Source of the DNA: a virus
Length of the DNA: 48,961 nt
Strand: one strand, 5' to 3'
IMG/VR virus record: IMGVR_UViG_3300047310_000028
Span: 1 to 48,961 of that record
Part shown: positions 12 through 13,537 of the stretch, piece by piece
Layout: each line of letters begins with the position of its first letter
How positions within the stretch are numbered: position 1 is the first letter of the stretch
Notes under the pieces: generated by a model
The model's database searches: none
What the model was told of the DNA's origin: nothing
The model's input: the letters and a program-made list of their open reading frames with translations, nothing else
Made by a program: the position numbers and the translations under genes

Positions 12-2861
12 TCAGACCTTCCCGGCCTCCGCTCCTCCTAGCCTCCTCCATCGTCTACAGTCGATCTTCCGAAACCCCTTGCGCATAAGACCCTTGAAAA
101 TGTACCAGTCTCCTATCTTCGCCTTCTCCACAATCGGGACTCCCCACACTTTGTAATTGTGACGATTTATCGTGACACGAATATTCGCCGTATCATCCTC
201 GACCGTCAAGTGAAGAATCAAACTCTGCCCGTTGATTCGCTTCCCATCCCGCTTCTTCACCGCATTGGGGTCATTGAGGTCACGTAAGTCCTTCTCCTTA
301 ATCTTCCCCATGACCAAGAACTCTCCGTCATCGTCTTCCGTAATATTAATCAGGTCTGTGATCGGAGTTCGGATGTTGTACTTCTCCGGGTTCTTCTTTA
401 TGTCTCCCCAACGCTCCGCACACTCAAAGATCGAATCGAATGGAGTTGTTCCGTTGGCTAACTTATTCCGCTGACCGTTCGTCAAAGGCTCACCGCGCTG
501 CCGGCGTGCGATAATATCGTCAGCAGTCTTCTCTCCTATCCCTTTGACGTTGAGCAATCCTCCAATCATCACTCCATCCTTAATCGTCCAGTTTTTCTCC
601 GACAACTCCGGGTCGTAAGCCTTGAACCGGAAACCCTCACGATGCATTTCCCGGAGGAGCGTGGTGCATTGATCTTCGTCTGCCGAACGGAGACAGGCTG
701 TGGCGAACTCTAGCGGGAACCTCGCCTTCAATACCAGCGTCCAATACGATACCATACCATAGGCAACCGCGTGGCTCCGGTTGAAAGACCACGAACCCAT
801 CGTGTTGATATTGTCCCATACCGTTTTCGCATCGTCTTCCTCGACCCCTTGCGCCAAGGCTCCTTCCCGGAATCGCTCCCAGTACTTGTCGAAGAACTCC
901 TTGCCGTAACTCTTCGACATAGCCTTGCGGAGGTCTGACACGTCCTTCCACGAGAGCTTGCCCATTTGGCGTGCGATCTGCATAACCTGTTCCTGATAGA
1001 TGATGATGCCATACGTTAACGCGGTCACTCCTTCTATCGAGGAATGGAGATGCGATGTGTCGGCCTTCCCGGTGCGCCGCTTAATAAACTCGGCAGCTCC
1101 TCCGCTCTCCAGCGGCCCAGGTCGAGCCAGAGCAGTAAGGGATGCGATGTCCTCGAAGTTCTCGACCCGGAGCTGAGCACAGAGAGATTGCAGAGCGTAT
1201 CCTTCAAACTGAAAGATGCCGCTGAACTTTCTATCGTTCAAGACTGCGAACGCATCCTCATCGTTTGTTGGATAGGCCAGCAACTTCTCCTTCGTCCAGC
1301 CAATCTGATCTAGGCAATCCTGAATTACGCTCAGGGTTCGGAGTCCCAGCGCGTCTATCTTCAGCAGGTCGAGCACTTCGGCATCCTGCTTAGTCACTTG
1401 CGCCGCTCCCGTTTTTCTATCCACGGTGCAATATTGCGAGATGTTATTGGCCGTCACAACGATGCCGGCTGCGTGCTGCCCCGAAGACTTGGCGTGATTC
1501 TCGATATGGGCTGCGACCTTGAGCTGTGGGAACTTCTCCAAGGTCTTCCGGCCTATCTCCAGCTCAGCGAACGTATCCATGATACAGAACGCAGCACGAG
1601 CATCGCCGGTGCTCCGCTCGATAATCGCATTGGAGAGGTCTTTCACTTCCCATGTTGGTATGCCTAGGTTCTTCGCTACATCGCCAATCGTGCTCTTGGC
1701 CTTATAGCGGAGCACCGTTCCCAACCTCGCAACGTTCTCGCTGCCATACTTTCCACGGATATATTCAAACACCATATCTCTTCGCGTGTCCGGAAAATCA
1801 ATGTCGATGTCCGGTAAGTCCTTCCGGTTGACATCAATGAACCGCTCGAAGAGGAGCGTGTAAGGTATCGGGTCAATGTCCGTTATCCGTAGCAGGTAGC
1901 AGACCAACGACCCGCAGGAGCTTCCGCGTGCCGGCCCAACCAGCATGTGCTTCTTTGCATAGTCAATAATATCCGCCACCAAATAGAAGTAATCCTCAAA
2001 CTTCTTTTCAGCAATCAGTTCCAGTTCCCTCTTCAGCCTATCCCTATACACCGGCTTGCGGAGGTCGATGCCTCTTACCTTTGCGGCCTTCTCGCACATG
2101 GACTTCAAGCTGGGCATATTCTCGAAGTGAACCATCGGAGCCTTCGGAAGTTCGGCACAGCATAGATCGACAATCTGTTGCTGGTTCAGCAGAGCTTCCT
2201 TCGGAGCCTGTGGCCAGATCATCTGCCATTCACGCCAAGAGAGAAGATGCATAGGCGATGTACGCATCTGACGTTCTCTTCCACTAATTACCTCGTATGT
2301 GCCCTTGTCTTCTAATCTTGGATAGTAGTTGTCCGAGGTCGCAACGACTGGTAACCGGAGTTGCGCGGCCTGAGCTAGGACGTTGATAGGGCTGTTGGGA
2401 TTTATCTCCACATACAAGTTCTCCCGCTTCTTGGGCAACTTAGCCCAGACAGGGTGAGTCCCGGAGAGGAGGAGAATATTGCTGCTGACCTCCGAAAGAA
2501 TGTTGTAGTCGATGCGCGGGTGGTAATAGAAGTTGAGCGGGTCTGTAGAATAGGAAATTAGTTCATACATCTCCTTGAGGCCGGCATCGTTGACCGCAAG
2601 CATGGACATCCAGTTGATGCCTTGCTTCTCCTTCAACTTGGCATCCGCTACAACCGCCAGCTCCGTTCCCAGCAGCGGTTTCCTCCCGGCCTTCTTACAA
2701 GCGGAGGAGAATTGGACGTGACCCCAGCTACCGGACTGGTCACAAATACCCACTGGGCCTTCCGTGGCTTCAAGAACTTTGGCTATGGGGCCAAATACTT
2801 TTCTGAAGGTGAACTCAGTCCGGCATTTCAGGTTGATCATTTTTAGCTGTTCGTTAGCCAT
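12..2861 (-). CDS. dnaE: DnaE-like C-family DNA polymerase (Pol III alpha)
   Basis: Replicative DNA polymerase of the bacterial Pol III alpha family, 949 residues against about 1160 for E. coli DnaE. The catalytic acidic motif PDIDIDF lies at residues 350-356 and the third carboxylate in KIDALGLRTL at about 503. The nucleotide-binding GSS is at 313-315. Towards the C-terminus are a helix-hairpin-helix (GIGEKTADDI) and an OB-fold-like stretch (about 835-945). The N-terminal PHP domain is recognisable (EFTF...KPLLGTE), but the usual metal-binding His-x-His is replaced by Lys-Cys-Arg, so proofreading probably comes from the separate DnaQ-like exonuclease at 4289. The start overlaps the stop of the upstream helicase by 19 bases. 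Function is certain at family level; a processivity partner is not visible. Confidence 0.95.
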   Translation of the reverse strand: MANEQLKMINLKCRTEFTFRKVFGPIAKVLEATEGPVGICDQSGSWGHVQFSSACKKAGRKPLLGTELAVVADAKLKEKQGINWMSMLAVNDAGLKEMYELISYSTDPLNFYYHPRIDYNILSEVSSNILLLSGTHPVWAKLPKKRENLYVEINPNSPINVLAQAAQLRLPVVATSDNYYPRLEDKGTYEVISGRERQMRTSPMHLLSWREWQMIWPQAPKEALLNQQQIVDLCCAELPKAPMVHFENMPSLKSMCEKAAKVRGIDLRKPVYRDRLKRELELIAEKKFEDYFYLVADIIDYAKKHMLVGPARGSSCGSLVCYLLRITDIDPIPYTLLFERFIDVNRKDLPDIDIDFPDTRRDMVFEYIRGKYGSENVARLGTVLRYKAKSTIGDVAKNLGIPTWEVKDLSNAIIERSTGDARAAFCIMDTFAELEIGRKTLEKFPQLKVAAHIENHAKSSGQHAAGIVVTANNISQYCTVDRKTGAAQVTKQDAEVLDLLKIDALGLRTLSVIQDCLDQIGWTKEKLLAYPTNDEDAFAVLNDRKFSGIFQFEGYALQSLCAQLRVENFEDIASLTALARPGPLESGGAAEFIKRRTGKADTSHLHSSIEGVTALTYGIIIYQEQVMQIARQMGKLSWKDVSDLRKAMSKSYGKEFFDKYWERFREGALAQGVEEDDAKTVWDNINTMGSWSFNRSHAVAYGMVSYWTLVLKARFPLEFATACLRSADEDQCTTLLREMHREGFRFKAYDPELSEKNWTIKDGVMIGGLLNVKGIGEKTADDIIARRQRGEPLTNGQRNKLANGTTPFDSIFECAERWGDIKKNPEKYNIRTPITDLINITEDDDGEFLVMGKIKEKDLRDLNDPNAVKKRDGKRINGQSLILHLTVEDDTANIRVTINRHNYKVWGVPIVEKAKIGDWYIFKGLMRKGFRKIDCRRWRRLGGAEAGKV

Positions 2862-4075
2862 GTTAGGTGCTCCTTTGCTCTAGTTACTGCTGTATACAGC
2901 CACCGCTTCCGCATTGCCCTGTTTCCTATTTGCATCTCATCATCTACCAGAACGACCCTGTCCCATTCGGAGCCTTGAGACTTATGGACAGTTATGGCAT
3001 ATCCATAGTCGAACTCCGAGAGCTTCGAGCGGGCAGCCCACGGGTCTTCCTCCGCTCGATCATTGTAGTGAACTTCAAAAGGATAGTGATAACATTTGAG
3101 CTTATAGAGCAGCTCTCCTTCGTACAGAACGTCCATCACAAGCTCTCCCTCATCCGTTACTTCCATGCTGCTCGCAGCGAGGCATTGCATCCCGTTAACA
3201 ATCCCGCCATGAGTGTATTGGTTCTTCAAGCAGATGAGCTTCTCGCCTTCGAGCGGGAACTTACCCTCAAAGCCTCTGACCTTCCGTATGGCTCGATTCA
3301 ATCTGCGCCGCATAAAGTTCATGCCGGTGATAACTTGATCGGCCTTGGATAGCTCCGTTATCGGGTAGCCAGTTTTACAATGCTTGACTATATGAGCATT
3401 CTCTATGTTGGACTCGATTCGTTCTCCGTTCCTAACTCGCATAGAGAGGTTGATGATGGGGTTGTCGAGAGCTTGCCGTTGAATCTCCGATAGCATCGCA
3501 TCCGGCTCTTGCTTGTTAAAATAGCCGGCATCACCAACAGGAGGTAGCTGGCCTGGGTCACCAACGAAGATAACGATGGCCCCTGTGCGATGGAGGTCTT
3601 CTACCATCTTAGCAGTTACCATAGATGCCTCATCGACCATCACAACCCGGCCTCGCTTTATCTCCTTTGCCTCGTTGTCCATGAATGATATCTTTAGATC
3701 GGCAAGCCTCCGCTTCTCTTCCCGGATAGCCTCAATCAACTCCCTAGCTCCCGGATTCGCGGCCAGATGAGCTTCGAGAGCTTCGAGTTGTTTGATATTC
3801 GGCATCACAGGCTTATACAACGCCTTGTGAATGGTGGTGACCGTTGCATTCTTCAACTTCCGCTGAAGCACGCTGGCTGCCTTACCTGTAGGAGCAATAC
3901 AGATAGGAGGAGTGTCGAGACGGTTGATGATCTCTTGAAGGAGCGTGGTCTTACCTGTGCCCGCATAGCCTCCAAGATAGAACATCCAATCATCTACAAA
4001 TGGCCCCTCTCTAGGATTTTCGAGCCAATGCATGATCTTGCTTAATGCTCCTTCTTGCTCGAAAGAAAGTTTCAT
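2843..4075 (-). CDS. RecD/Dda-like SF1B DNA helicase
   Basis: ATP-dependent DNA helicase of superfamily 1B, 410 residues, the size of phage Dda-type helicases. Walker A is GYAGTGKT at residues 36-43. The Walker B DEAS is in VVMVDEASMV, a GDPGQLPPVG motif III follows, and the C-terminal motifs VHKSQGSEWD and YTAVTRAKEHL match the RecD/TraA/Dda pattern. It probably unwinds DNA at the fork or remodels recombination intermediates. The ATG overlaps the TGA of the tiny ORF upstream (ATGA), and its end overlaps the polymerase start, so the three are probably translated in series. No replicative DnaB-type hexameric helicase was seen in the window, which makes this protein a candidate for the fork helicase. 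Confidence 0.93.
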   Translation of the reverse strand: MKLSFEQEGALSKIMHWLENPREGPFVDDWMFYLGGYAGTGKTTLLQEIINRLDTPPICIAPTGKAASVLQRKLKNATVTTIHKALYKPVMPNIKQLEALEAHLAANPGARELIEAIREEKRRLADLKISFMDNEAKEIKRGRVVMVDEASMVTAKMVEDLHRTGAIVIFVGDPGQLPPVGDAGYFNKQEPDAMLSEIQRQALDNPIINLSMRVRNGERIESNIENAHIVKHCKTGYPITELSKADQVITGMNFMRRRLNRAIRKVRGFEGKFPLEGEKLICLKNQYTHGGIVNGMQCLAASSMEVTDEGELVMDVLYEGELLYKLKCYHYPFEVHYNDRAEEDPWAARSKLSEFDYGYAITVHKSQGSEWDRVVLVDDEMQIGNRAMRKRWLYTAVTRAKEHLTWLTNS

Positions 4076-4167: not shown

Positions 4168-4292
4168 CGCATCTCCTCGGCAGAGTAAGTCTGAACGATT
4201 TGATGGATGCAATTCAGTATTGTTGGATAATCTCCTTGATGCTTTAACAGATACTCTGCAACCAATTTGAAGACAATTCCTGGGACAATCAC
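4164..4292 (-). CDS. 42-residue hypothetical peptide, coupled to exonuclease
   Basis: A short ORF starting with GTG inside the stop of the DnaQ-like exonuclease (GTGA overlap) and ending in a TGA that overlaps the next ATG. The peptide begins MIVPGIVFKLVAEYLLKHQG and looks like a single amphipathic helix followed by a second helical stretch. No family is recognised. It fills a gap of more than 200 bases in an otherwise gap-free operon, and its overlaps at both ends argue for real translation. Confidence 0.5.
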   Translation of the reverse strand: MIVPGIVFKLVAEYLLKHQGDYPTILNCIHQIVQTYSAEEMR

Positions 4293-4981
4293 AGATGGCC
4301 TTCCTTCCTGAGCCACCGGACTACCGTGACCAGCTCCTCGACATCCTTCATAGCTCCGTGGGCTCCCTCGAAGGCCGCACCCTTGAACATCTTAGCTTCG
4401 AGGGTCTTGATGGCTCCGTCTGTTTCCTTCTTCACTTTCAACTTCTCTCCCAGCACTTCGAGAATCGTACACTTGCCGAGAGTCTTGTGCTTGACGAACT
4501 GTCCCGGAGCGAACGCAACCCGTTGTTCGGGAGTCTTGCCGGCTGCGAGCAGGTGAAGATCGGAGAGGCCAAGACGATGCCCCTTGATACCTTCGCTTAT
4601 CTCGACCGTGCAAATGTGACGAATAGGCCACGGGAAGTTTAGCAGCTTACCTATACGGGTCAGAGAATATCGGAGCAACCCGGAGTCATAGGCCATGTTA
4701 TGAGCTACCATCTCCCGCTCTCCCAAGAAGAACTCCGAGAGAGCGGTGTAATGGGCAATGAAAGGTTCCTTACCGTCTATATCGGCCTCCGTTATGCCGG
4801 TGATCTTGGTGAATAGCTCCGGGAGAACGATGCCGGGATGACAAAGGAACTCGTGCCGGCTAACCTCCTTCAACTTGCTGTCCAACTTAATAGCAGCTAG
4901 CTGGACAAGGTGCGGCTGATCGGAAAGCGGCGCAACCTCCGGCTTAAGGAGGTCTGTCCCTTCTGTATCGTAAATGATCAA
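4289..4981 (-). CDS. DnaQ/RNase T-like 3'-5' exonuclease
   Basis: DEDDh-type 3'-5' exonuclease, 230 residues. The first acidic pair is in YDTEGT (residues 4-9), the second Asp in AHNMAYDSGLL, and the His/Asp pair in GHRLGLSDLHLL, in the order expected for DnaQ-family proofreading enzymes. After the nuclease domain there is a short beta-rich segment (about 155-200) that looks SH3/KOW-like. Encoded close to the DnaE-like polymerase, whose PHP domain lacks metal ligands, it is the obvious proofreading subunit. The ATG overlaps the stop of the upstream gene. Confidence 0.88.
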   Translation of the reverse strand: MIIYDTEGTDLLKPEVAPLSDQPHLVQLAAIKLDSKLKEVSRHEFLCHPGIVLPELFTKITGITEADIDGKEPFIAHYTALSEFFLGEREMVAHNMAYDSGLLRYSLTRIGKLLNFPWPIRHICTVEISEGIKGHRLGLSDLHLLAAGKTPEQRVAFAPGQFVKHKTLGKCTILEVLGEKLKVKKETDGAIKTLEAKMFKGAAFEGAHGAMKDVEELVTVVRWLRKEGHL

Positions 4982-5484
4982 GACTCCCTCCTATCTCCGC
5001 AGTTGACGCAAGTTGGTTTGCCGCAGCTATGAATAGTATTTGGTACAACCTTCTTACACCGCCTTGCAAAATGCTCCTTGGCGCAAGGATATTCGTACAC
5101 GTGCTCGCAGACGGTCGCTTTTGGCCCAACTTCCTGAACTGTAGTTACTAGAGGCAACGGAGGGCTAACATCAAACCCTTCAGCCTCCGCATCCAGCTCC
5201 TCTAGCATAAAAGAGTACACTCCCATGTCGTGAGCAGAATCCAGATGGCCCTTCTTAGGGTCTGTGACATAGCGGGACATCTTGGCAATGATCATGTGAA
5301 TAACGCCCATACGATTCCAATGCTCGACCGAATTGATAGTCAAGCCATTAGGAAACAAGGCCATCATTATCTCGCCAAACCGCTTGTAGTTATTGCCATA
5401 TCTCTTATTGCGAACTCGATATGTGCCGGCACCACGCTCCATATTACTGATTGCGTGATGATTCTCTTTTTTATTATCCGTCAT
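4978..5484 (-). CDS. small phage protein, MazG/DUF1599-like plus Cys-rich tail
   Basis: 168 residues from an ATG at 5484 with GGGAG seven bases upstream; the ATG overlaps the TGA of the phosphatase gene. The N-terminal half contains YGNNYKRFGEI and later LDSAHDMGVYSFML. This Tyr-Gly helix followed by an Asp-x-x-x-Asp helix is the pattern of small all-alpha phage proteins of the DUF1599 / nucleotide-modification-associated group, related in style to MazG pyrophosphohydrolases. The C-terminal 45 residues carry several Cys and His residues (CEH, C-x7-C, CGKPTCVNC), probably a zinc site. The family assignment is from memory of the motif and is tentative. Its position beside ThyX and the carbamoyltransferase suggests a nucleotide-metabolism role. 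Confidence 0.6.
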   Translation of the reverse strand: MTDNKKENHHAISNMERGAGTYRVRNKRYGNNYKRFGEIMMALFPNGLTINSVEHWNRMGVIHMIIAKMSRYVTDPKKGHLDSAHDMGVYSFMLEELDAEAEGFDVSPPLPLVTTVQEVGPKATVCEHVYEYPCAKEHFARRCKKVVPNTIHSCGKPTCVNCGDRRES

Positions 5485-5963
5485 CAATATTCTCCCTTCC
5501 CCACTTGAAGACACGGGAGGCCAACGCTCCTCCAGAACTCAACCAGCTTGTCTCGATCTTCTAACACAAGCTCAATGTTGTGGCCCTTTAGATACTTCTC
5601 GTACATATCCCGCTTGACGTCTACATCGCTGCGGAAGTCACCCTCATTCCGCATGAACAGAGCATCGAACGGGACATTATGCCGGCGAAGCCACATTACC
5701 ACCAGCATGTGATACCGCTCTGGAGTTCCGGTTACCAGTACCACCGTCCATTTCCTTTGGGCTGCTAGACGGAGCGTGTTAATAGTCCCAGCCACCGGGA
5801 GGTCTGCCCCTAGCTCTCGATTGAATTGATCCCAGTCCGGCTTGTCTCCTCCCTTGATGAACTTGAGACGGTGAGTGAAGTCCGACAGCGTACCGTGAAT
5901 GTCGGAGACGATTGTTTGCTGCTTGGCCGGCATAAACCGGAGGGTGGCGAGGCCGCTCGTCAT
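5484..5963 (-). CDS. HAD-family phosphatase, Pnkp 3'-phosphatase-like
   Basis: 159 residues resembling the phosphatase half of T4 polynucleotide kinase. It has the nucleophile loop SDIHGTLSD near residue 20, then VTGTPERY (motif II Thr), FMRNEGDFRSD, and near the end VLEDRDKLVEFWR and GLPCLQVGKGEY, which mirror the Pnkp DDR...WR...G..C.QV..G pattern. There is no kinase P-loop, so it is a stand-alone phosphatase. The usual general-acid Asp of the DxD loop is His here (D-I-H), which may weaken or alter the chemistry. Its ATG overlaps the stop of thyX and its stop overlaps the next ATG. Possible roles are end repair of nicked phage DNA or dephosphorylation of a modified nucleotide. Confidence 0.8.
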   Translation of the reverse strand: MTSGLATLRFMPAKQQTIVSDIHGTLSDFTHRLKFIKGGDKPDWDQFNRELGADLPVAGTINTLRLAAQRKWTVVLVTGTPERYHMLVVMWLRRHNVPFDALFMRNEGDFRSDVDVKRDMYEKYLKGHNIELVLEDRDKLVEFWRSVGLPCLQVGKGEY

Positions 5964-6811
5964 TTGGCCTCCTTTGTCATCTGTTTCGGAACGGCCTCGA
6001 ATCGAGTGCCCTCCCAGATGACTTGAATCTCGGAACGGGTTAAGGGTTTTTCATATTGATAGATAACTGCATCAAACTTTTTGTCCCACCGAAGTCCCGT
6101 GTCTGGGTTGAATACTCCAGGTTTGATAGGACACTCTGTGTAATTAGGAAAGCAGCATACTCCGTCAGCGGCACACGCAACACGGATGAATGGCTCTGCC
6201 CATGGATGAATTCCAAGCACAAGGTCACGCATTTTTCTGAAGATAGTTTGATACTCACCCTGTGTTCGGGTACAGAGACGGACACGTGCCATTTCGGACA
6301 ACGTCCTAAGATTGAATTTTCCAATGATGTTTGTTGAAACATTGGTGGGCAATAATCCGCGAGCATCTTGTGGATTAGCTCCGCACGCAACCAGCCGCTC
6401 ATAAAAACCATCGATGGCCTCCATTGCCTGTTGGAATTCATACCCCAATGTATTGAATTCAGTTTCCTCCTTATCCTGAAATGCTTCGGGCATAATGAAA
6501 TCAAACCCGGACATATCGACTGTGCGTTGAGACTGTTGGGCATAATGGCCGGAGCGCGTGCGGACATATTGATGCGTGAAGCCTCTCGATACTCCATCAA
6601 TCGAGAAGACATAGTCGCAGAACTCCCAGCTGGACTTAATTGTCCCCAGCATGTAGTCAAGTTCCTTTTGTTTCTTCTCCTCAGGCCAGTCTCGAATCTC
6701 TTGCATAAGGCCGGCATCCATAGACAGACGTGTCTGTTTTGTGAAGAGCAGAAGCTCACGTGCTTCGTGAGTATGGTTGATCAATGTTACGTTTGGTGTA
6801 ACTGCCTGCAT
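5960..6811 (-). CDS. thyX: divergent ThyX-like flavin-dependent thymidylate synthase
   Basis: 283 residues from the ATG at 6811, which overlaps the TAA of the carbamoyltransferase and has GGGAGG six bases upstream; longer in-frame starts would intrude into that gene. The ThyX signature region is QYVRTRSGHYAQQSQR, where canonical ThyX has RHRxxSxxxxSxR. The His is Thr and the first Ser is His, while the second Ser and last Arg are kept. A second conserved block, ARGLLPTN...FNLRTLSEM...RTQGEY, matches the dUMP- and flavin-binding C-terminal helices. ThyX transfers a methylene from folate to dUMP using FAD. The altered signature, and the neighbours, leave open that it makes a different 5-substituted pyrimidine nucleotide. 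Confidence 0.88.
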   Translation of the reverse strand: MQAVTPNVTLINHTHEARELLLFTKQTRLSMDAGLMQEIRDWPEEKKQKELDYMLGTIKSSWEFCDYVFSIDGVSRGFTHQYVRTRSGHYAQQSQRTVDMSGFDFIMPEAFQDKEETEFNTLGYEFQQAMEAIDGFYERLVACGANPQDARGLLPTNVSTNIIGKFNLRTLSEMARVRLCTRTQGEYQTIFRKMRDLVLGIHPWAEPFIRVACAADGVCCFPNYTECPIKPGVFNPDTGLRWDKKFDAVIYQYEKPLTRSEIQVIWEGTRFEAVPKQMTKEAK

Positions 6812-8490
6812 TAGCGGCCTCCCTTGTAATTTTGGTTGGTGTAGAGGAACCCATTTGCCCAGATGTACTTTGTCCTTCCCCATCGCATCGCTGACTCTAC
6901 ATCCGGGAAGAACCCTGACCCGTTCAAGTTTGCGCTCGTATTACAGAGGAGCGGATAGCTGGAGAGCCTTCGATATTGAGTCAACAATTCGTGGACATTG
7001 AAGTTCTGAGAACGGTTGACGGTTTGGAGACGCGCTGTGTTGTCGAGATGAATTACAGCAGGTATCCTTGTGCGATAAAAGTCTCTGACCTCGTGGTCGA
7101 AGAGCATGTATGGGTCTGGAGTGCCTGGGTCGAATATCTCCTGAGCTTGCTCCTCTAAGCAGATCGGAGCTACTGGCCGGAAGCTCTCCCGCTGCTTGAG
7201 CAGGTTGAGGAGGTCTTTGTTGCTGGCCACAGTAGCAGCGCACAGGATACTCCGATTTCCGAGAGCACGTGGGCCAATCTCTGCCCGTTCGTTCAGAAAC
7301 ACAACAGGCTCCTCCGGCTCACAATAGAAAATACGCGCCAGTTGACGGAGCGTACAGTTGGACGATTCCCACCGCAGTCCATCTATCTCTCCCGGCTTGA
7401 GATGAGGCCCACAGTAGACGTTCCAATCCATAGACCAGTTTCCCAACGTTGCCATCTCGCAAGCAGCCGTTCCAATTGCACTCCCGCAATCATTCGGGAA
7501 CGGAGGCACCCAGACATCCTTGAAGTGACCGCTCCGGCGCAACGCGCTGTTCCATTTGATATTCAATGCGCTGCCGCCGGCAAAGCAAAGATTCGACCCG
7601 AATGGAATGTGATTCTCCGCTCGATTAACCAAGGTCATAGACAACCATTCGTGAATCGTTCGGAGAACATCCGCATCCGAGAGATGGGAGAAATACTCCT
7701 TGACTGTGCGCGCAATCCGTTGCATGAAGCGATGCTCCGGGGTTCCTGTTTGGTTATAGGCAAGACGATTCTCAGGAAGATGACGCTGCAAGACCTCTAC
7801 ATAAGCAGAGTATACATGCGTCATCAACTGGTGATGTTCTTCCCCCAGTGCAATATAAGACATCAACTTGCCTGGCTTGTCATAGCCTCCATACAACTTC
7901 TCTCCGCTCTCTAATCTCCGCTCGACCTCCGGCATCTTATATGGGCCGAAGTAATAACCCATAATACCATAGATGATACCGTACAACTCCATCAAGGAGC
8001 AGACAAACTCGATGCCTCCTTTCGGAGTTACGAGATGGACACGCGGGTTCTGCCCTCCATCCCACGTTATCACATAGGCTGGTTCTCCGGCCTTGGCAAA
8101 CGGAGATGTGGTGTAGGCTCCCATTATGTGACTGGACATGTGAGGGTAGCTTACATACGGAGCTGAGCGGCCCATAATGTGCAGGCCTTCCCGGAACTCC
8201 CGGCGATAGTCGAGGAAGGAAACATCGCCATCATACTCGTGGTAAGGAGCCACCCGGAGGTTGTATCCATTGCGGTCGATCTTCCCGTGCTTCCATCCAT
8301 CTACCACAAATATATCAGGGTCAAAATCGTGATCTACCAGTATCTTGCTAATGGTAGCAAAGTCCGGCATCGTGCTGTAACGCGGATTGTTGTTGAGTTT
8401 CTCGACCTCTACACAGAAGAGCAGCTTGCTGCCCTCTATGCCGGCCACGGCTGCGTCATGTGTGAGCTTAAGTCCGCAGATTTTCTTCAT
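6811..8490 (-). CDS. NodU/CmcH/TobZ-family O-carbamoyltransferase
   Basis: 559 residues with both domains of the family. The N-terminal Kae1-like ATPase domain has GLKLTHDAAV near the start, the metal-binding HxxxH in PHMSSHIMGAY, and TWDGGQ; FAGGSALN follows. The C-terminal YrdC-like part has EIGPRALGNRS, RESFRPVAPICLEE and LLCNTSANLNG. Such enzymes use carbamoyl phosphate and ATP to carbamoylate a hydroxyl. Phage members acting on 5-hydroxymethylcytosine in DNA have been described, which is the basis for proposing a DNA base as substrate here; an antibiotic-like sugar substrate is unlikely in a phage. GGAGG precedes the ATG by seven bases. It is flanked by a flavoprotein and thyX in the same tight operon. 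Confidence 0.92.
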   Translation of the reverse strand: MKKICGLKLTHDAAVAGIEGSKLLFCVEVEKLNNNPRYSTMPDFATISKILVDHDFDPDIFVVDGWKHGKIDRNGYNLRVAPYHEYDGDVSFLDYRREFREGLHIMGRSAPYVSYPHMSSHIMGAYTTSPFAKAGEPAYVITWDGGQNPRVHLVTPKGGIEFVCSLMELYGIIYGIMGYYFGPYKMPEVERRLESGEKLYGGYDKPGKLMSYIALGEEHHQLMTHVYSAYVEVLQRHLPENRLAYNQTGTPEHRFMQRIARTVKEYFSHLSDADVLRTIHEWLSMTLVNRAENHIPFGSNLCFAGGSALNIKWNSALRRSGHFKDVWVPPFPNDCGSAIGTAACEMATLGNWSMDWNVYCGPHLKPGEIDGLRWESSNCTLRQLARIFYCEPEEPVVFLNERAEIGPRALGNRSILCAATVASNKDLLNLLKQRESFRPVAPICLEEQAQEIFDPGTPDPYMLFDHEVRDFYRTRIPAVIHLDNTARLQTVNRSQNFNVHELLTQYRRLSSYPLLCNTSANLNGSGFFPDVESAMRWGRTKYIWANGFLYTNQNYKGGR

Positions 8491-8519
8491 GATGGGCCTC
8501 CATCTGGCTTTGAATTTTG

Positions 8520-9461
8520 TTAGATGTTCTGTAACTTGAAACTATAACCATCACGTTCTGTGATGAATGACTCGACCCGTTTGACATCCTGAACGACATC
8601 ATCCAGTAATATGTTCCGCCATGTAGCATACCTTCCGAGAGAATAGATGTCATTTCTATCGGACATAGCAAGGATAAACTGCCGACGATCACGCTCCGGG
8701 ATAGGAGCAATTTTGCCGAACCGCTGAACCTTGAGATGGTATTCGGTAAGGTTGACCTGCTTATAAATGCCGAAGTCTCCGAGAACCTGCTGGATGCTGC
8801 GCTTCCAGTAGCCTATATCTTGCTGAGGCTCTCCGGCCATTTCAATGGTCAAGTGATTTCCTGTCAGGCTGGCTCTGTACCAAGGTTCGTGACCCGGATA
8901 GTAGATGGTCTGAAAGACATCGACATTTGGCTGAACTACGTCACAAGAAAGAATTGTGATAGTCCGGTAGTTGAAGGCTGGCATCGGTGACCACTTAGCA
9001 ATCTTCATTAAGAACGGCATCGGGATTGTACTGATAACAGCATCCCGTGGATCCACCGGAACATCCTCCAAAGGGGAGTTGTAATGAATCTCTAACCCAT
9101 GGGCTAGCTGCTTGATAAGGTTCGGAGGAGCAATGAACCGCTCGACCGTATCCATGTTCAAAATACTACGGTCAACAACCTCTCCCATTGCCTTCAACGA
9201 GTAAAGATTGTTGAGATAGATATCAGCCTTGGTGACTCTCCGGGAATCACCTGTATTGATATCAGAATGAATTATGAGCTTCCGCACCGTTACCTTACGG
9301 AATGGAATGCCAATCTCCCGGCTTACCGTATCGGAACGGAAGCGGAGGAGGGCATCGTGGTTGTTGGGAAGAGAGGGTTGGGCCTCAAATATAATAGGCT
9401 TATGCCTCCGAAGCATAGTTGCTGCGAGGAGTCCGGCAAGGCCGGCACCATAGATTCTCAT
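8520..9461 (-). CDS. FAD-dependent oxidoreductase, UGM/amine-oxidase-like fold
   Basis: 313 residues from an ATG preceded by GGAGAG. The N-terminus is a Rossmann dinucleotide-binding motif, IYGAGLAGLLAATML, followed after one strand by an acidic residue (IIFEAQ) as in FAD proteins. The C-terminal SLGRYATWRNILLDD resembles the FAD-pyrophosphate segment of UDP-galactopyranose mutase and flavin amine oxidases. The substrate cannot be read from sequence. It is the first gene of the cluster with the carbamoyltransferase and ThyX, after the hairpin at 9495-9533. Flavin-dependent enzymes take part in known phage thymine hypermodification routes, so a base-modification step is a reasonable guess but no more than that. 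Confidence 0.8.
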   Translation of the reverse strand: MRIYGAGLAGLLAATMLRRHKPIIFEAQPSLPNNHDALLRFRSDTVSREIGIPFRKVTVRKLIIHSDINTGDSRRVTKADIYLNNLYSLKAMGEVVDRSILNMDTVERFIAPPNLIKQLAHGLEIHYNSPLEDVPVDPRDAVISTIPMPFLMKIAKWSPMPAFNYRTITILSCDVVQPNVDVFQTIYYPGHEPWYRASLTGNHLTIEMAGEPQQDIGYWKRSIQQVLGDFGIYKQVNLTEYHLKVQRFGKIAPIPERDRRQFILAMSDRNDIYSLGRYATWRNILLDDVVQDVKRVESFITERDGYSFKLQNI

Positions 9462-10113: not shown

Positions 10114-11568
10114 TTAGATCGAATAGTGTCTGTTAGATTGTATCTGGCAAATTGTTAAGGTCTTCCGGGCACGCGTTATCGCTACATATAGCACGCGCTG
10201 TTCTTCGTCTGTGTGCCGCTGAGTCCAAGGGTTGTGCGATAGATCGGGAATCAAAACAACGTTATCGGCCTCTCCTCCCTTGACGCGGTGAATGGTGCTA
10301 ATCGTGATTCGAGGCTCAGCCGTTAACCGCTCCCGGTTAGCCAAGCAAGCTCGCAGATATTCACGGGTCTTGGGTTTGACTTCCAGCGCATCCATCCAGT
10401 TCTTCCTCTTCGTCTCCGGCTTCAGCGGAGCATCCTCCAAATAGACCTCCTCCGAAGGACGCCACATTGCCAGCTCCGGGAGCAACGCTCCAATAGCCTT
10501 CACATCTCCCGGCTTAATCGGGTTTCCCTTTCTCCACCGCTCCCAAGCTATAATGCCTCTTGTGACTGAGTTATCGGTCGAGTGCCGGCCTTCCTTCCGG
10601 TAAGCAACGCCTTGATTCTGGCAAACCTCCTCAAAGCGAGAGAGTGCGCTGTGGTTCCTCGCAATCAACATCCATTCGCCTTCCGACAAGTTCAAAGACC
10701 TCTCGTTGAAGCTCCTGTGGACTTCGCCTTCGTCTTCCCTAGGTTTCCAAGTCTTCGGCTGCCTGACCTGTATTCTCCCGGTTATCTCCGTTGCGAGACG
10801 GAAGACGGAGCGTGGTAACCGGAAGGACTCCGGGCGAACCTCGATGGGAGCCTTGATCCTGAGGAAGCGGTTGACATTTGCTCCGGCCCACCCATAGATA
10901 CATTGATCATCGTCACCGGCCAGATAGACTTGCTTTGCGTTTGCGGAGGATGTCCTTACAACCTTCCATTGTAAGTCCGAGAGGTCTTGTGCCTCGTCAA
11001 TTATGAATAGGTCTACATCCAGCGGCGCATCGTATTGTTCCAGCAGGTCTGTATAGTCGAGCATGCCTCTGGTTTCCTTATACCGCTTCAGCCCTTCTGC
11101 CCATTGCCCAACCGCCAGCCAAGGGACATCCCTGTAGTTGCTATCTCTCCATTGCTCTTCCAAGCCTACGTTCCGAACTCTGGCCAGAGACTCGATGCGG
11201 GCAACCTTATCTCCGAGAGCAGTGCCCATTGGCATCATAGTGTACTCGTCATCGAGCGAGGTAAACTGAAAGCCTAGAATCCGGCCTAGCTCCTTGAAGT
11301 GCTCCTCCTGCATAATGTCATCGCGTCTTGCGTGGATATAGTGAAACGCCATACTGTGGAGAGTTCGGAAGTGCGGGAACCTCTCCTTGGCAAACTTGAA
11401 TCGTTCCTGTGCGCGCTGAGCTGCCTCATCAGCAGCCTTGCGGGTGAAGGCCATGAATGCTATACGCTCCGGCTTTATGCCAGCAGCCATGGCCTCCTCC
11501 ACAAGGGAGAGTAATCGAGTGGTCTTCCCGGTGCCGGGAGGCCCAAAGATTTTAGTGACTCTGCTCAA
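10114..11568 (-). CDS. UvrD/Rep-like SF1A helicase
   Basis: About 484 residues from a TTG at 11568, which has GAGG six bases upstream and starts MSRVTKIFGPPG; the reading frame is open further upstream (ATG at 11658) but that would overlap the previous gene by about 100 bases. Walker A is FGPPGTGKTT within the first 20 residues. FMAFTRKAADEA is motif Ia, FIIDEAQDLSDLQW Walker B, and LAGDDDQCIYGWAGA motif III. STIHRVKGGEADNV and LYVAITRARKTL close the family pattern. It is shorter than host UvrD (about 700) because the 1B/2B insertions are reduced. Probable roles are replication restart, recombination or removal of bound proteins. Confidence 0.92.
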   Translation of the reverse strand: MSRVTKIFGPPGTGKTTRLLSLVEEAMAAGIKPERIAFMAFTRKAADEAAQRAQERFKFAKERFPHFRTLHSMAFHYIHARRDDIMQEEHFKELGRILGFQFTSLDDEYTMMPMGTALGDKVARIESLARVRNVGLEEQWRDSNYRDVPWLAVGQWAEGLKRYKETRGMLDYTDLLEQYDAPLDVDLFIIDEAQDLSDLQWKVVRTSSANAKQVYLAGDDDQCIYGWAGANVNRFLRIKAPIEVRPESFRLPRSVFRLATEITGRIQVRQPKTWKPREDEGEVHRSFNERSLNLSEGEWMLIARNHSALSRFEEVCQNQGVAYRKEGRHSTDNSVTRGIIAWERWRKGNPIKPGDVKAIGALLPELAMWRPSEEVYLEDAPLKPETKRKNWMDALEVKPKTREYLRACLANRERLTAEPRITISTIHRVKGGEADNVVLIPDLSHNPWTQRHTDEEQRVLYVAITRARKTLTICQIQSNRHYSI

Positions 11569-11773
11569 GCTCAACCTCAGGTTCGTTCTCTCCGTCCTTC
11601 TGGACGGTGACGCGTGTGATCTTGCCATCAACGCGGAAGGTAACTCCACGCACTTCAAAATCCGGCGTGCCCTTCCAAACTACTGGTGATTTGTCATCGG
11701 AGATGAAGACCTTGAGAACGGTCTGAATCTCTACATTGTGTGGCTTGTACGATACTCGAAGTGTCCTTGCCAT
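11552..11773 (-). CDS. small hypothetical protein, 73 aa
   Basis: 73 residues, beta-strand-rich by pattern (alternating hydrophobic residues: TFRVDGKITRVTVQKDG), strongly acidic at the end. Not recognised. It lies directly before the UvrD-like helicase, and its stop is 14 bases inside that gene's preferred TTG start, so the two are probably coupled. Confidence 0.65.
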   Translation of the reverse strand: MARTLRVSYKPHNVEIQTVLKVFISDDKSPVVWKGTPDFEVRGVTFRVDGKITRVTVQKDGENEPEVELEQSH

Positions 11774-11774
11774 G

Positions 11775-11999
11775 CTATCTCTTCCTCCTGTGCCGCCATT
11801 GGCGGATTAAGTATTTTGACTTCTTGATTGCTGTTTCCAGCTCCAAATACGGATAGAGATTGCCGACTGCATCCGATTTGAACTTGTAGCAAGAGCGGTG
11901 TAGCGTCAACCGCTTCCCGTTAGGGAGTATAATGCGAAACCACTCTGGTGTAGTTTTGACATATACCTTGTTTGGTATCTTGCGAGTAAATGTGATCAC
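11775..11999 (-). CDS. small basic hypothetical protein, 74 aa
   Basis: 74 residues, very basic, ending in IRQWRHRRKR. Its ATG overlaps the stop of the primase gene (ATGA). The pattern of Lys/Arg and aromatic residues would suit a nucleic-acid-binding accessory to the primase or the helicase that flank it, but no family is recognised. Confidence 0.65.
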   Translation of the reverse strand: MITFTRKIPNKVYVKTTPEWFRIILPNGKRLTLHRSCYKFKSDAVGNLYPYLELETAIKKSKYLIRQWRHRRKR

Positions 12000-13537
12000 A
12001 GTTCCTCCTCCACGCTCTCTGGCAATGCTATGCTGGTGCTGATGTCGAATCGTTCTGGCGCAGGGAGAGTCCAGACCCGGAGCACTCTATCCTTGACGCG
12101 AATCTGCCGGTTGTCTCCTCCCATCTGTTTAATCCACATCCATATCTCGTGTGGAGTATGTTGGAACCTCTTAATGGTAAGGTAGTTGGTGAGGTCTTCG
12201 GAGCGGAACAGGACACGATCTTCCTGAATCAATGAGTTACCCTTTATCAACTCATCCTTGTTCCGCGCCATCGAGCTGTTCTCAAAGAAGTTACCAACAA
12301 GGTTCTCGAATTGTCCTTGCCGGCTAGCATCGTCCGGGTCTGTAACTACATCGCACGTCTCCATCAGCTCCTTCAATCGGAGCACCCAGTCACGCTGCTT
12401 CCCTATTACAATCACAATGCTCAATCGGTCGAGGAAGACCCGCTGGAGAAGGGCTGGGCTGAGCAGCTGCTCAGTAGTAAGCTCGACCCGCTTGCCTCCG
12501 CTCTCAGCATACCACCGGACAGAATCCTTGCTCTCGCACTTCGTTATGTTGTCTATCGGGAAGAGTTCGCCGGCATCTTTGCCGAAGGTAATGCCGAACT
12601 CCCGCTTGGCGCATAGCTTCTTGTCGCAATGGTTACAGATCGGAGGCTGAGCACAAGTGTAAAAATAGTCCTTGCGCTCTATGTTACGAATGACCTGTGT
12701 GACCTCTTGGTTATCGAGCGGAGGTTTCATCAACTGTTGATTCTGCTCGTGAAGAATATCGTGCCAAGTATCCGGGTGTTTCTTCTTCAAGTAGACTGCT
12801 ATATTGTATAGAGAGTTGTTGCGGCCTCCCTCCTCGAATCCGAATGTGGCGAGATGCTGAAGGCACGGTGGGCCATCCGAGAAGAGAGCGGAGAGCGGCA
12901 CATCTACCTTGCCAAGAGCCTTGTTATCGACCCGCATCATGTTGGCATATTTGACGAAGTCTTCGAGCTTCCGAATAGGCTTGCCGTTGCGGAGACAATA
13001 CCGCTCTGTGCCTTCCTTCGATGTAGCTCCGTAATAGGCGATGTTGATCCAGTTGCCCCTATCCTTTTCATCAACCCGTGTCGATTGCTTCGGGAAGACC
13101 TCGCAGCCTCCGTATCCTAGGAGTGCGGCCAACTCCCGGAGCTTCTCCACCATTGCTTTGGCAGCCAGAGGCTCTGTGCCGAAGAGGTACAAATGTGCTC
13201 CTCCGCTCTTGCTCCTACAGACTACCAGCGGCAACTCTAGCTTCCTTATTCGCTTCTCCAGAGCCTCGACTGATTCCTTGAGAGGCTTGTCGCCTTTGAT
13301 GTCGATGTCGATAGCTCCAAACCAGCAAGTGTTATTAAGGAGGAGCGGGATAATGCCAAGAGATGTGCCGCTGCCGGCTAGATGGGCTGTATACTCTGTT
13401 GGTGATGCTCCGTAACCTTTTGTTGATGCGTGACCTTTTATCTTGCCGCTGTTATCCGGCTCAGAGAACAACTTGTGCTGACCGTGGCCGTTCTCGAAGC
13501 CACGGAACAACGCCATAAATTGCTCTAATAATTCCAT
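11996..13537 (-). CDS. AEP-superfamily (TOTE-type) DNA primase
   Basis: 513 residues. The N-terminal archaeo-eukaryotic primase domain has the catalytic acidic motif FGAIDIDIKGD at about 74-83 and the following GGAHLYLFG at about 112-120, as in the primase domain of TOTE conflict systems and many phage primases. Next comes a PriCT-like helical region with GGRNNSLYNIAVYL. A Cys cluster follows (CAQPPICNHCDKKLC at about 294-308) that probably binds zinc. The C-terminal 200 residues are helical and unassigned. It synthesises primers for the phage polymerase. No fused helicase motifs are seen, so unwinding must come from the separate helicases. The start lies 57 bases after the upstream gene. Confidence 0.85.
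   Translation of the reverse strand: MELLEQFMALFRGFENGHGQHKLFSEPDNSGKIKGHASTKGYGASPTEYTAHLAGSGTSLGIIPLLLNNTCWFGAIDIDIKGDKPLKESVEALEKRIRKLELPLVVCRSKSGGAHLYLFGTEPLAAKAMVEKLRELAALLGYGGCEVFPKQSTRVDEKDRGNWINIAYYGATSKEGTERYCLRNGKPIRKLEDFVKYANMMRVDNKALGKVDVPLSALFSDGPPCLQHLATFGFEEGGRNNSLYNIAVYLKKKHPDTWHDILHEQNQQLMKPPLDNQEVTQVIRNIERKDYFYTCAQPPICNHCDKKLCAKREFGITFGKDAGELFPIDNITKCESKDSVRWYAESGGKRVELTTEQLLSPALLQRVFLDRLSIVIVIGKQRDWVLRLKELMETCDVVTDPDDASRQGQFENLVGNFFENSSMARNKDELIKGNSLIQEDRVLFRSEDLTNYLTIKRFQHTPHEIWMWIKQMGGDNRQIRVKDRVLRVWTLPAPERFDISTSIALPESVEEEL

Follow-up and report, generated by a model that had tools for sequence, protein, structure and literature searches.

Two kinds of relatives are known for the carbamoyltransferase considered here. 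TobZ, GdmN, NovN and NodU act on antibiotic or sugar substrates in a secondary-metabolism context, while a phage member of the same superfamily, described by MetaGPA, acts on 5-hydroxymethyldeoxycytidine (5hmdC) in DNA and on its triphosphate, 5hmdCTP (eLife 2021, PMC8670742). In the MetaGPA system the carbamoyltransferase stands beside a pyrimidine-C5 nucleotide enzyme of the ThyA type (PF00303), with a deoxycytidine monophosphate (dCMP) deaminase and PRA-PH. Here, we analysed the whole of IMG/VR record IMGVR_UViG_3300047310_000028 (48,961 bases (b), classed as linear, possibly an incomplete contig; hereafter the window), where a NodU/TobZ-type carbamoyltransferase (hereafter NodU) also lies beside a pyrimidine-C5 nucleotide enzyme; however, ThyA is absent, the partners are a divergent ThyX and a flavoprotein with the predicted fold of UDP-galactopyranose mutase (UGM), and the substrate is probably uracil-based. 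The two systems are compared here by their gene partners. Base carbamoylation by a NodU-type enzyme is already known; the new parts would be a handle based on ThyX, a partner with the UGM fold and uracil as the substrate.

Terminase, portal, protease, tail and spanin genes were found elsewhere in the window, which identifies it as that of a tailed phage. NodU is the second gene of a tight minus-strand operon, running from 9461 down to 4978, that encodes the flavoprotein, NodU, ThyX, a HAD phosphatase and a DUF6378-like protein; a DnaQ exonuclease, a Dda helicase and a DnaE polymerase follow downstream (Table 1). An earlier reading made from the sequence alone (the sequence-only reading) had proposed the five joined genes as a dedicated base-modification operon, in which NodU is joined by a flavoprotein and a divergent ThyX and ThyA is lacking. 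The grouping is borne out as a recurrent, non-chance association. As for the operon, NodU is indeed tied to it, but the flavoprotein, ThyX, HAD and fifth genes belong to a block of replication genes that is core to hundreds of phages. We rejected a dedicated five-gene modification operon on the ground that four of its genes are part of this core; NodU is the added element.

The flavoprotein-ThyX pair is a fixed part of this replication block (hereafter the module) in hundreds of phages, Pbunavirus included. By tblastn, the flavoprotein was detected in 359 phage records and the same kind of ThyX in the same groups, with 291 Pseudomonas records leading. The order flavoprotein, ThyX, polynucleotide kinase (PNK)/HAD, exonuclease, DnaE is common to phages PB1, Kyle, WTB, Pluto, VA-RY-3, Gekk3-15, XcP1 and Ss1, and the window matches the Pbunavirus-type order flavoprotein-ThyX-HAD/DUF6378-like-DnaQ-DnaE, with the Dda helicase between DnaQ and DnaE. 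The Pbunavirus, Kylevirus, Carpasinavirus and Ss1-like blocks thus share with the window the succession of flavoprotein (phrog_4828), ThyX, HAD/PNKP and DUF6378-like parts, DnaQ and DnaE; however, they lack NodU, their proteins are 35-47% identical to those of the window, and in PB1 and Kyle the DUF6378-like part is fused behind HAD, whereas the window has separate genes. In viral contigs the pairing is obligate in both directions: all 62 testable loci retrieved by ThyX alone also had the flavoprotein, at a median gap of 3 b, and all 71 retrieved by the flavoprotein had ThyX, although, because the search patterns came from module members, these counts describe the module clade and not all ThyX, and some loci share one contig. 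ThyX records outnumber flavoprotein records because of more remote phage ThyX (identity about 34% or lower; Gordonia, haloviruses and others); for six of these, small surrounding regions were fetched. The record of Pseudomonas phage WP1 (L182) has its flavoprotein, ThyX and polymerase annotated in split pieces, which looks like the result of assembly frameshift errors.

NodU carries Carbam_trans_N and Carbam_trans_C in one chain, the two-domain architecture of TobZ, GdmN, NovN and NodU, and shares their catalytic motifs: HDAA, the metal histidines H117/H121, WDGG, GGSALN and GPRALG are invariant or nearly so in its clade. With these active-site motifs intact, it is predicted to be an O-carbamoyltransferase that moves carbamoyl onto a hydroxyl. 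Single-sequence scans of viral contigs with NodU or the flavoprotein gave no matches and alignments were needed. Relatives of NodU at 40-58% identity came from viral contigs only, and the resulting clade of ten lineages is monophyletic (support 98/98). It was not found in the bacterial genomes searched, so that a recent pick-up from a host is not supported at that sensitivity.

Every member of the NodU clade lies inside the block, in four or more positions: between the flavoprotein and ThyX (window, L165, L167, L168, L169, L170/L174), after ThyX and before HAD (L172), between HAD and the exonuclease (L164, L173), or after the exonuclease and before a methyltransferase (L171). The set of flavoprotein, NodU and ThyX, which the sequence-only reading had proposed to look for in relatives, recurs in viral contigs of this clade. 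Eight of nine NodU-clade loci contain the flavoprotein (the ninth is a 7.4-kb fragment), against none of 80 control loci, which are viral carbamoyltransferase loci among the matches listed in a broad scan, all from other clades; the Fisher p of 1e-10 is descriptive only, since the NodU-clade loci are related. A weak ThyX-like match was seen in one of the 80 controls. NodU shifts within the block yet never leaves it, as would be expected if the block made its substrate. The ThyA domain (PF00303) is absent from all ten NodU-clade contigs, window record included, some of which may be incomplete. It occurs in two of 40 other NodU-bearing viral records, which argues that a ThyA linkage of viral carbamoyltransferases is not general. 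Conserved sugar or tail neighbours, which would have pointed to another substrate, were also looked for; the neighbours are replication and nucleotide genes, and an action of NodU on a tail or glycan is disfavoured, as no glycan or tail genes adjoin it. In a separate observation, a distant viral carbamoyltransferase (L175:7197-9566) lies between a RecA-like gene and QueC, a position that suggests a link to 7-deazaguanine modification.

The window ThyX has the Thy1 domain and the ThyX fold (Foldseek to the Mycobacterium tuberculosis and Thermotoga maritima enzymes, E 5e-12). We compared 52 module ThyX, with residues in T. maritima numbering. Tyr91 is described as strictly conserved and critical, Y91A slowing the use of the carbinolamine more than 100-fold; His53 forms a hydrogen bond with Tyr91 and stacks against the folate; and Arg174 is thought to activate deoxyuridine monophosphate (dUMP) via N3 deprotonation (PMC8316439, PMC11940539). 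In the window, H53 is changed to Ile, H79 to Thr, Y91 to Thr and H178 to Arg. His53 is replaced in all 52 (Ile in 51, Val in one), Tyr91 gives way in all to a non-aromatic residue (Thr, Val, Ala, Ser, Gly or Met), and His178 is Arg or Lys throughout; six phage ThyX outside the module have Tyr or Phe at 91. The dUMP and flavin adenine dinucleotide (FAD) residues Q75, R78, R80, R90, R147 and R174 are kept in 52 of 52. The RHRx7S motif reads RTRx7S in the window, with RTR in 35 and RHR in 13 of the 52. Thus, compared with T. maritima TM0449 and M. tuberculosis ThyX, fold and FAD/dUMP-binding residues are shared, whereas the window has RTR for RHR, and H53, Y91 and H178 are replaced across the module clade. 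Judged by these alignments, H53 and Y91, catalytic residues typical of thymidylate synthesis, are lost from module ThyX, and the divergence noted by the sequence-only reading was real and understated. Nucleotide and flavin sites that are kept beside a rebuilt folate and one-carbon (C1) transfer side point either to another product or to another C1 donor, between which the sequence cannot decide. The invariant Arg174 argues for uracil rather than cytosine as the substrate, since cytosine has no N3-H.

For the flavoprotein, no sequence relative of known structure and no close one of known function was found; it gave a sub-threshold NAD_binding_8 match and did not match the Pfam UGM family, GLF. 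Its AlphaFold2 (AF2) model (pLDDT 92.8, pTM 0.87) has the UGM fold with an FAD site, and a GAGxxG motif is present. The best Foldseek match was UGM (Aspergillus fumigatus UGM, E 1.9e-11), followed by amine oxidases and renalase. The predicted fold is thus common to UGM and FAD amine oxidases (E 2e-11, TMq 0.67), but identity to UGM is about 12% and there is neither a GLF match nor a sugar-nucleotide context. In UGM the substrate forms a covalent adduct at flavin N5, and the ThyX methylene is likewise carried on flavin N5, a comparison already drawn in the literature (PMC8316439).

We hypothesize that ThyX and the UGM-fold flavoprotein would work as a pair on dUMP, converting it to a C5-hydroxymethyl-type (or similar hydroxyl-bearing) deoxyuridylate, in place of or besides plain thymidylate, which would then enter DNA. 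Here and in some nine related lineages, NodU would use carbamoyl phosphate and ATP to place carbamoyl on the hydroxyl, before or after incorporation, and the 5-carbamoyloxymethyl-deoxyuridine (dU)-like base would shield virion DNA from host nucleases. We infer that the handle is a hydroxyl, that its base is uracil and not cytosine, that nucleotide or DNA is acted on and that the product is protective; for the route as a whole, we consider the chances to be nearly balanced, tilting slightly against. More tentatively, and somewhat further below even chances, the ThyX lacking H53 and Y91 and its obligate flavoprotein may generate C5-functionalised dU in the DNA of hundreds of phages, Pseudomonas Pbunaviruses included, with individual lineages decorating the handle by interchangeable transferases, here a carbamoyltransferase. 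A weak hint of modified DNA in a module phage comes from Pbunavirus JG024, which lacks NodU: its DNA resists ScaI, NdeI and BsaI and is cut by XbaI and by SacII, whose site is free of T (PMC10913387, PMC3008698). Plain 5-hydroxymethyldeoxyuridine (hmdU) blocks few restriction enzymes, and hmdU derivatives block NdeI (PMC7653180, PMC6449724). Our literature search found no report of Pbunavirus base modification beyond this resistance.

The same genes can be read as thymidylate supply. ThyX and the flavoprotein would then form an unusual but ordinary thymidine monophosphate (dTMP) synthase, in which the flavoprotein, as reductase or C1 partner, compensates for H53/Y91, while NodU carbamoylates an unrelated host glycan, nucleoside antibiotic or other metabolite. 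The retained ThyX fold and dUMP/FAD site are consistent with this, as are the wide distribution of the block without NodU, the classing of this ThyX as replication machinery by earlier authors (PMC3008698) and the preference of NodU-family enzymes for sugars and antibiotics; however, this reading gives no reason for the NodU clade to sit at several places in the block and nowhere else, the 80 other viral carbamoyltransferases are not near the block, and glycan or tail genes are missing beside NodU. We regard it as unlikely, while taking it seriously. The analogy with 5-hydroxymethylcytosine drawn by the sequence-only reading is probably wrong, a product at the thymine position being likelier. 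On that account module ThyX would act on dCMP to give 5-hydroxymethyl-deoxycytidine (dC), which NodU would turn into 5-carbamoyloxymethyl-dC. The sole characterised phage carbamoyltransferase of this kind does work on 5hmdC (PMC8670742), but the ThyA-type dCMP hydroxymethylase is absent, the residue thought to deprotonate N3 of dUMP is invariant in 52/52, and SacII cuts JG024 DNA at CCGCGG, which argues against cytosine being generally modified in a module phage, leaving this route improbable.

We also give little credence to a scheme in which the flavoprotein, as a flavin oxidase or monooxygenase, oxidises the thymine methyl in DNA or on dTMP, with ThyX only supplying dTMP and NodU decorating hydroxymethyluracil; a fold near FAD amine oxidases, renalase and UGM and the obligate pairing with ThyX would suit it, yet the joint loss of H53 and Y91 would remain unexplained and the flavoprotein has no close sequence relative of known function. 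Several points weigh against the ThyX-flavoprotein handle itself. The resistance of JG024 may come from ordinary methylation, the explanation favoured by its authors (PMC10913387, PMC3008698). Most module phages lack NodU, so that the handle, if real, is usually bare or decorated otherwise. One NodU-clade locus (L171, a 12.4 kb fragment) has flavoprotein, HAD, exonuclease, NodU and an S-adenosylmethionine (SAM) methyltransferase without ThyX. ThyX may still make dTMP, its changes being due to another C1 donor or reductant, and the flavoprotein is placed by its predicted fold.

If the proposed route is true, a flavin-based way to modified pyrimidines would exist beside the ThyA-type one, in common cultivated therapy phages (Pbunavirus), where its chemistry could be tested directly; it would explain the unannotated conserved phage family phrog_4828 and add a new carbamoylated base. 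Should the modification reading prove wrong, the two-way linkage of ThyX and flavoprotein, together with the missing Tyr91/His53, would still point to unstudied thymidylate chemistry.

Table 1. Genes of the operon, of the surrounding replication block and of a primase in the window.
Feature	Position	Strand	Evidence
FAD protein, phrog_4828, UDP-galactopyranose-mutase/amine-oxidase-like fold	8520..9461	-	phrog_4828 6e-62; AF2 and Foldseek
NodU/TobZ-type O-carbamoyltransferase (predicted), N- and C-terminal domains	6811..8490	-	Carbam_trans_N 2.1e-58, Carbam_trans_C 2.2e-44; TobZ/GdmN/NovN relatives in PDB
ThyX-like enzyme, module-specific clade	5960..6811	-	Thy1 4.7e-35; AF2 model matches M. tuberculosis/T. 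maritima ThyX
HAD phosphatase, PNKP type	5484..5963	-	HAD_PNKP 2.5e-24
DUF6378-like helical protein	4978..5484	-	phrog_4889 residues 237-324, 6e-13; alignment
DnaQ-type 3'-5' exonuclease, next conserved-block gene	4289..4981	-	RNase_T 2e-16
Dda-like helicase of block	2843..4075	-	phrog_325 2e-96
DnaE-type DNA polymerase III alpha of block	12..2861	-	DNA_pol3_alpha 3e-67
UvrD-type helicase, upstream of flavoprotein	10114..11658	-	UvrD-helicase 3e-28; kept in viral-contig relatives (synteny)
Primase, archaeo-eukaryotic primase domain of TOTE type (PF22548) and PriCT-like tail	11996-13537	-	domain match

The five joined genes are real and lie where they had first been placed (4978-9461), with small corrections to starts only. 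The flavoprotein starts at ATG 9461 (the longest open reading frame (ORF) begins at TTG 9473) and is separated from NodU by 29 b with a good ribosome-binding site. ThyX most likely starts at 6811 and not at 6883, where its longest ORF begins: its ATG shares TAATG with the stop of NodU, and the alignment of relatives begins at this point; ThyX and HAD overlap by 4 b (ATGA). For the fifth gene, ATG 5484, sharing TGATG with the HAD stop, is most likely the start rather than GTG 5514, and its DUF6378 match reached only E 0.022, under the cut-off. A megablast search with 25 kb of the window found no near phage.

Other genes occupy variable slots of the block in relatives, with counts that include overlapping loci: among the ORFs screened there were 57 Pyr_excise-related proteins, 40 short-chain dehydrogenases/reductases (SDR) and 19 SAM methyltransferases, together with FkbM methyltransferases, radical SAM proteins and a weak match to glycosyltransferase family 2 (GT2). 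In Vibrio phage VA-RY-3, a sulfotransferase-family gene (L005:9181-9933), possibly another decorating enzyme, is found two genes after ThyX. Transferases are what a decorated handle would need; the variable slots collect unrelated genes too. Between the PNK/DUF6378-like gene and the exonuclease, a number of relatives (L002, L004, L006, L007, L016, L030 and others) have a FabG-like short-chain dehydrogenase (phrog_3142), and a conserved protein of about 170 amino acids, with a weak match to pyrimidine dimer DNA glycosylase (PF03013) and to phrog_624, 'DNA binding protein', occurs shortly after ThyX in L021, L070, L079 and about 50 more loci. Finally, motif I of the window HAD phosphatase reads DIHGT, with His in place of the second Asp of DxDGT that nearly every relative has (1 of 139 sequences screened), and the enzyme may be inactive or altered.

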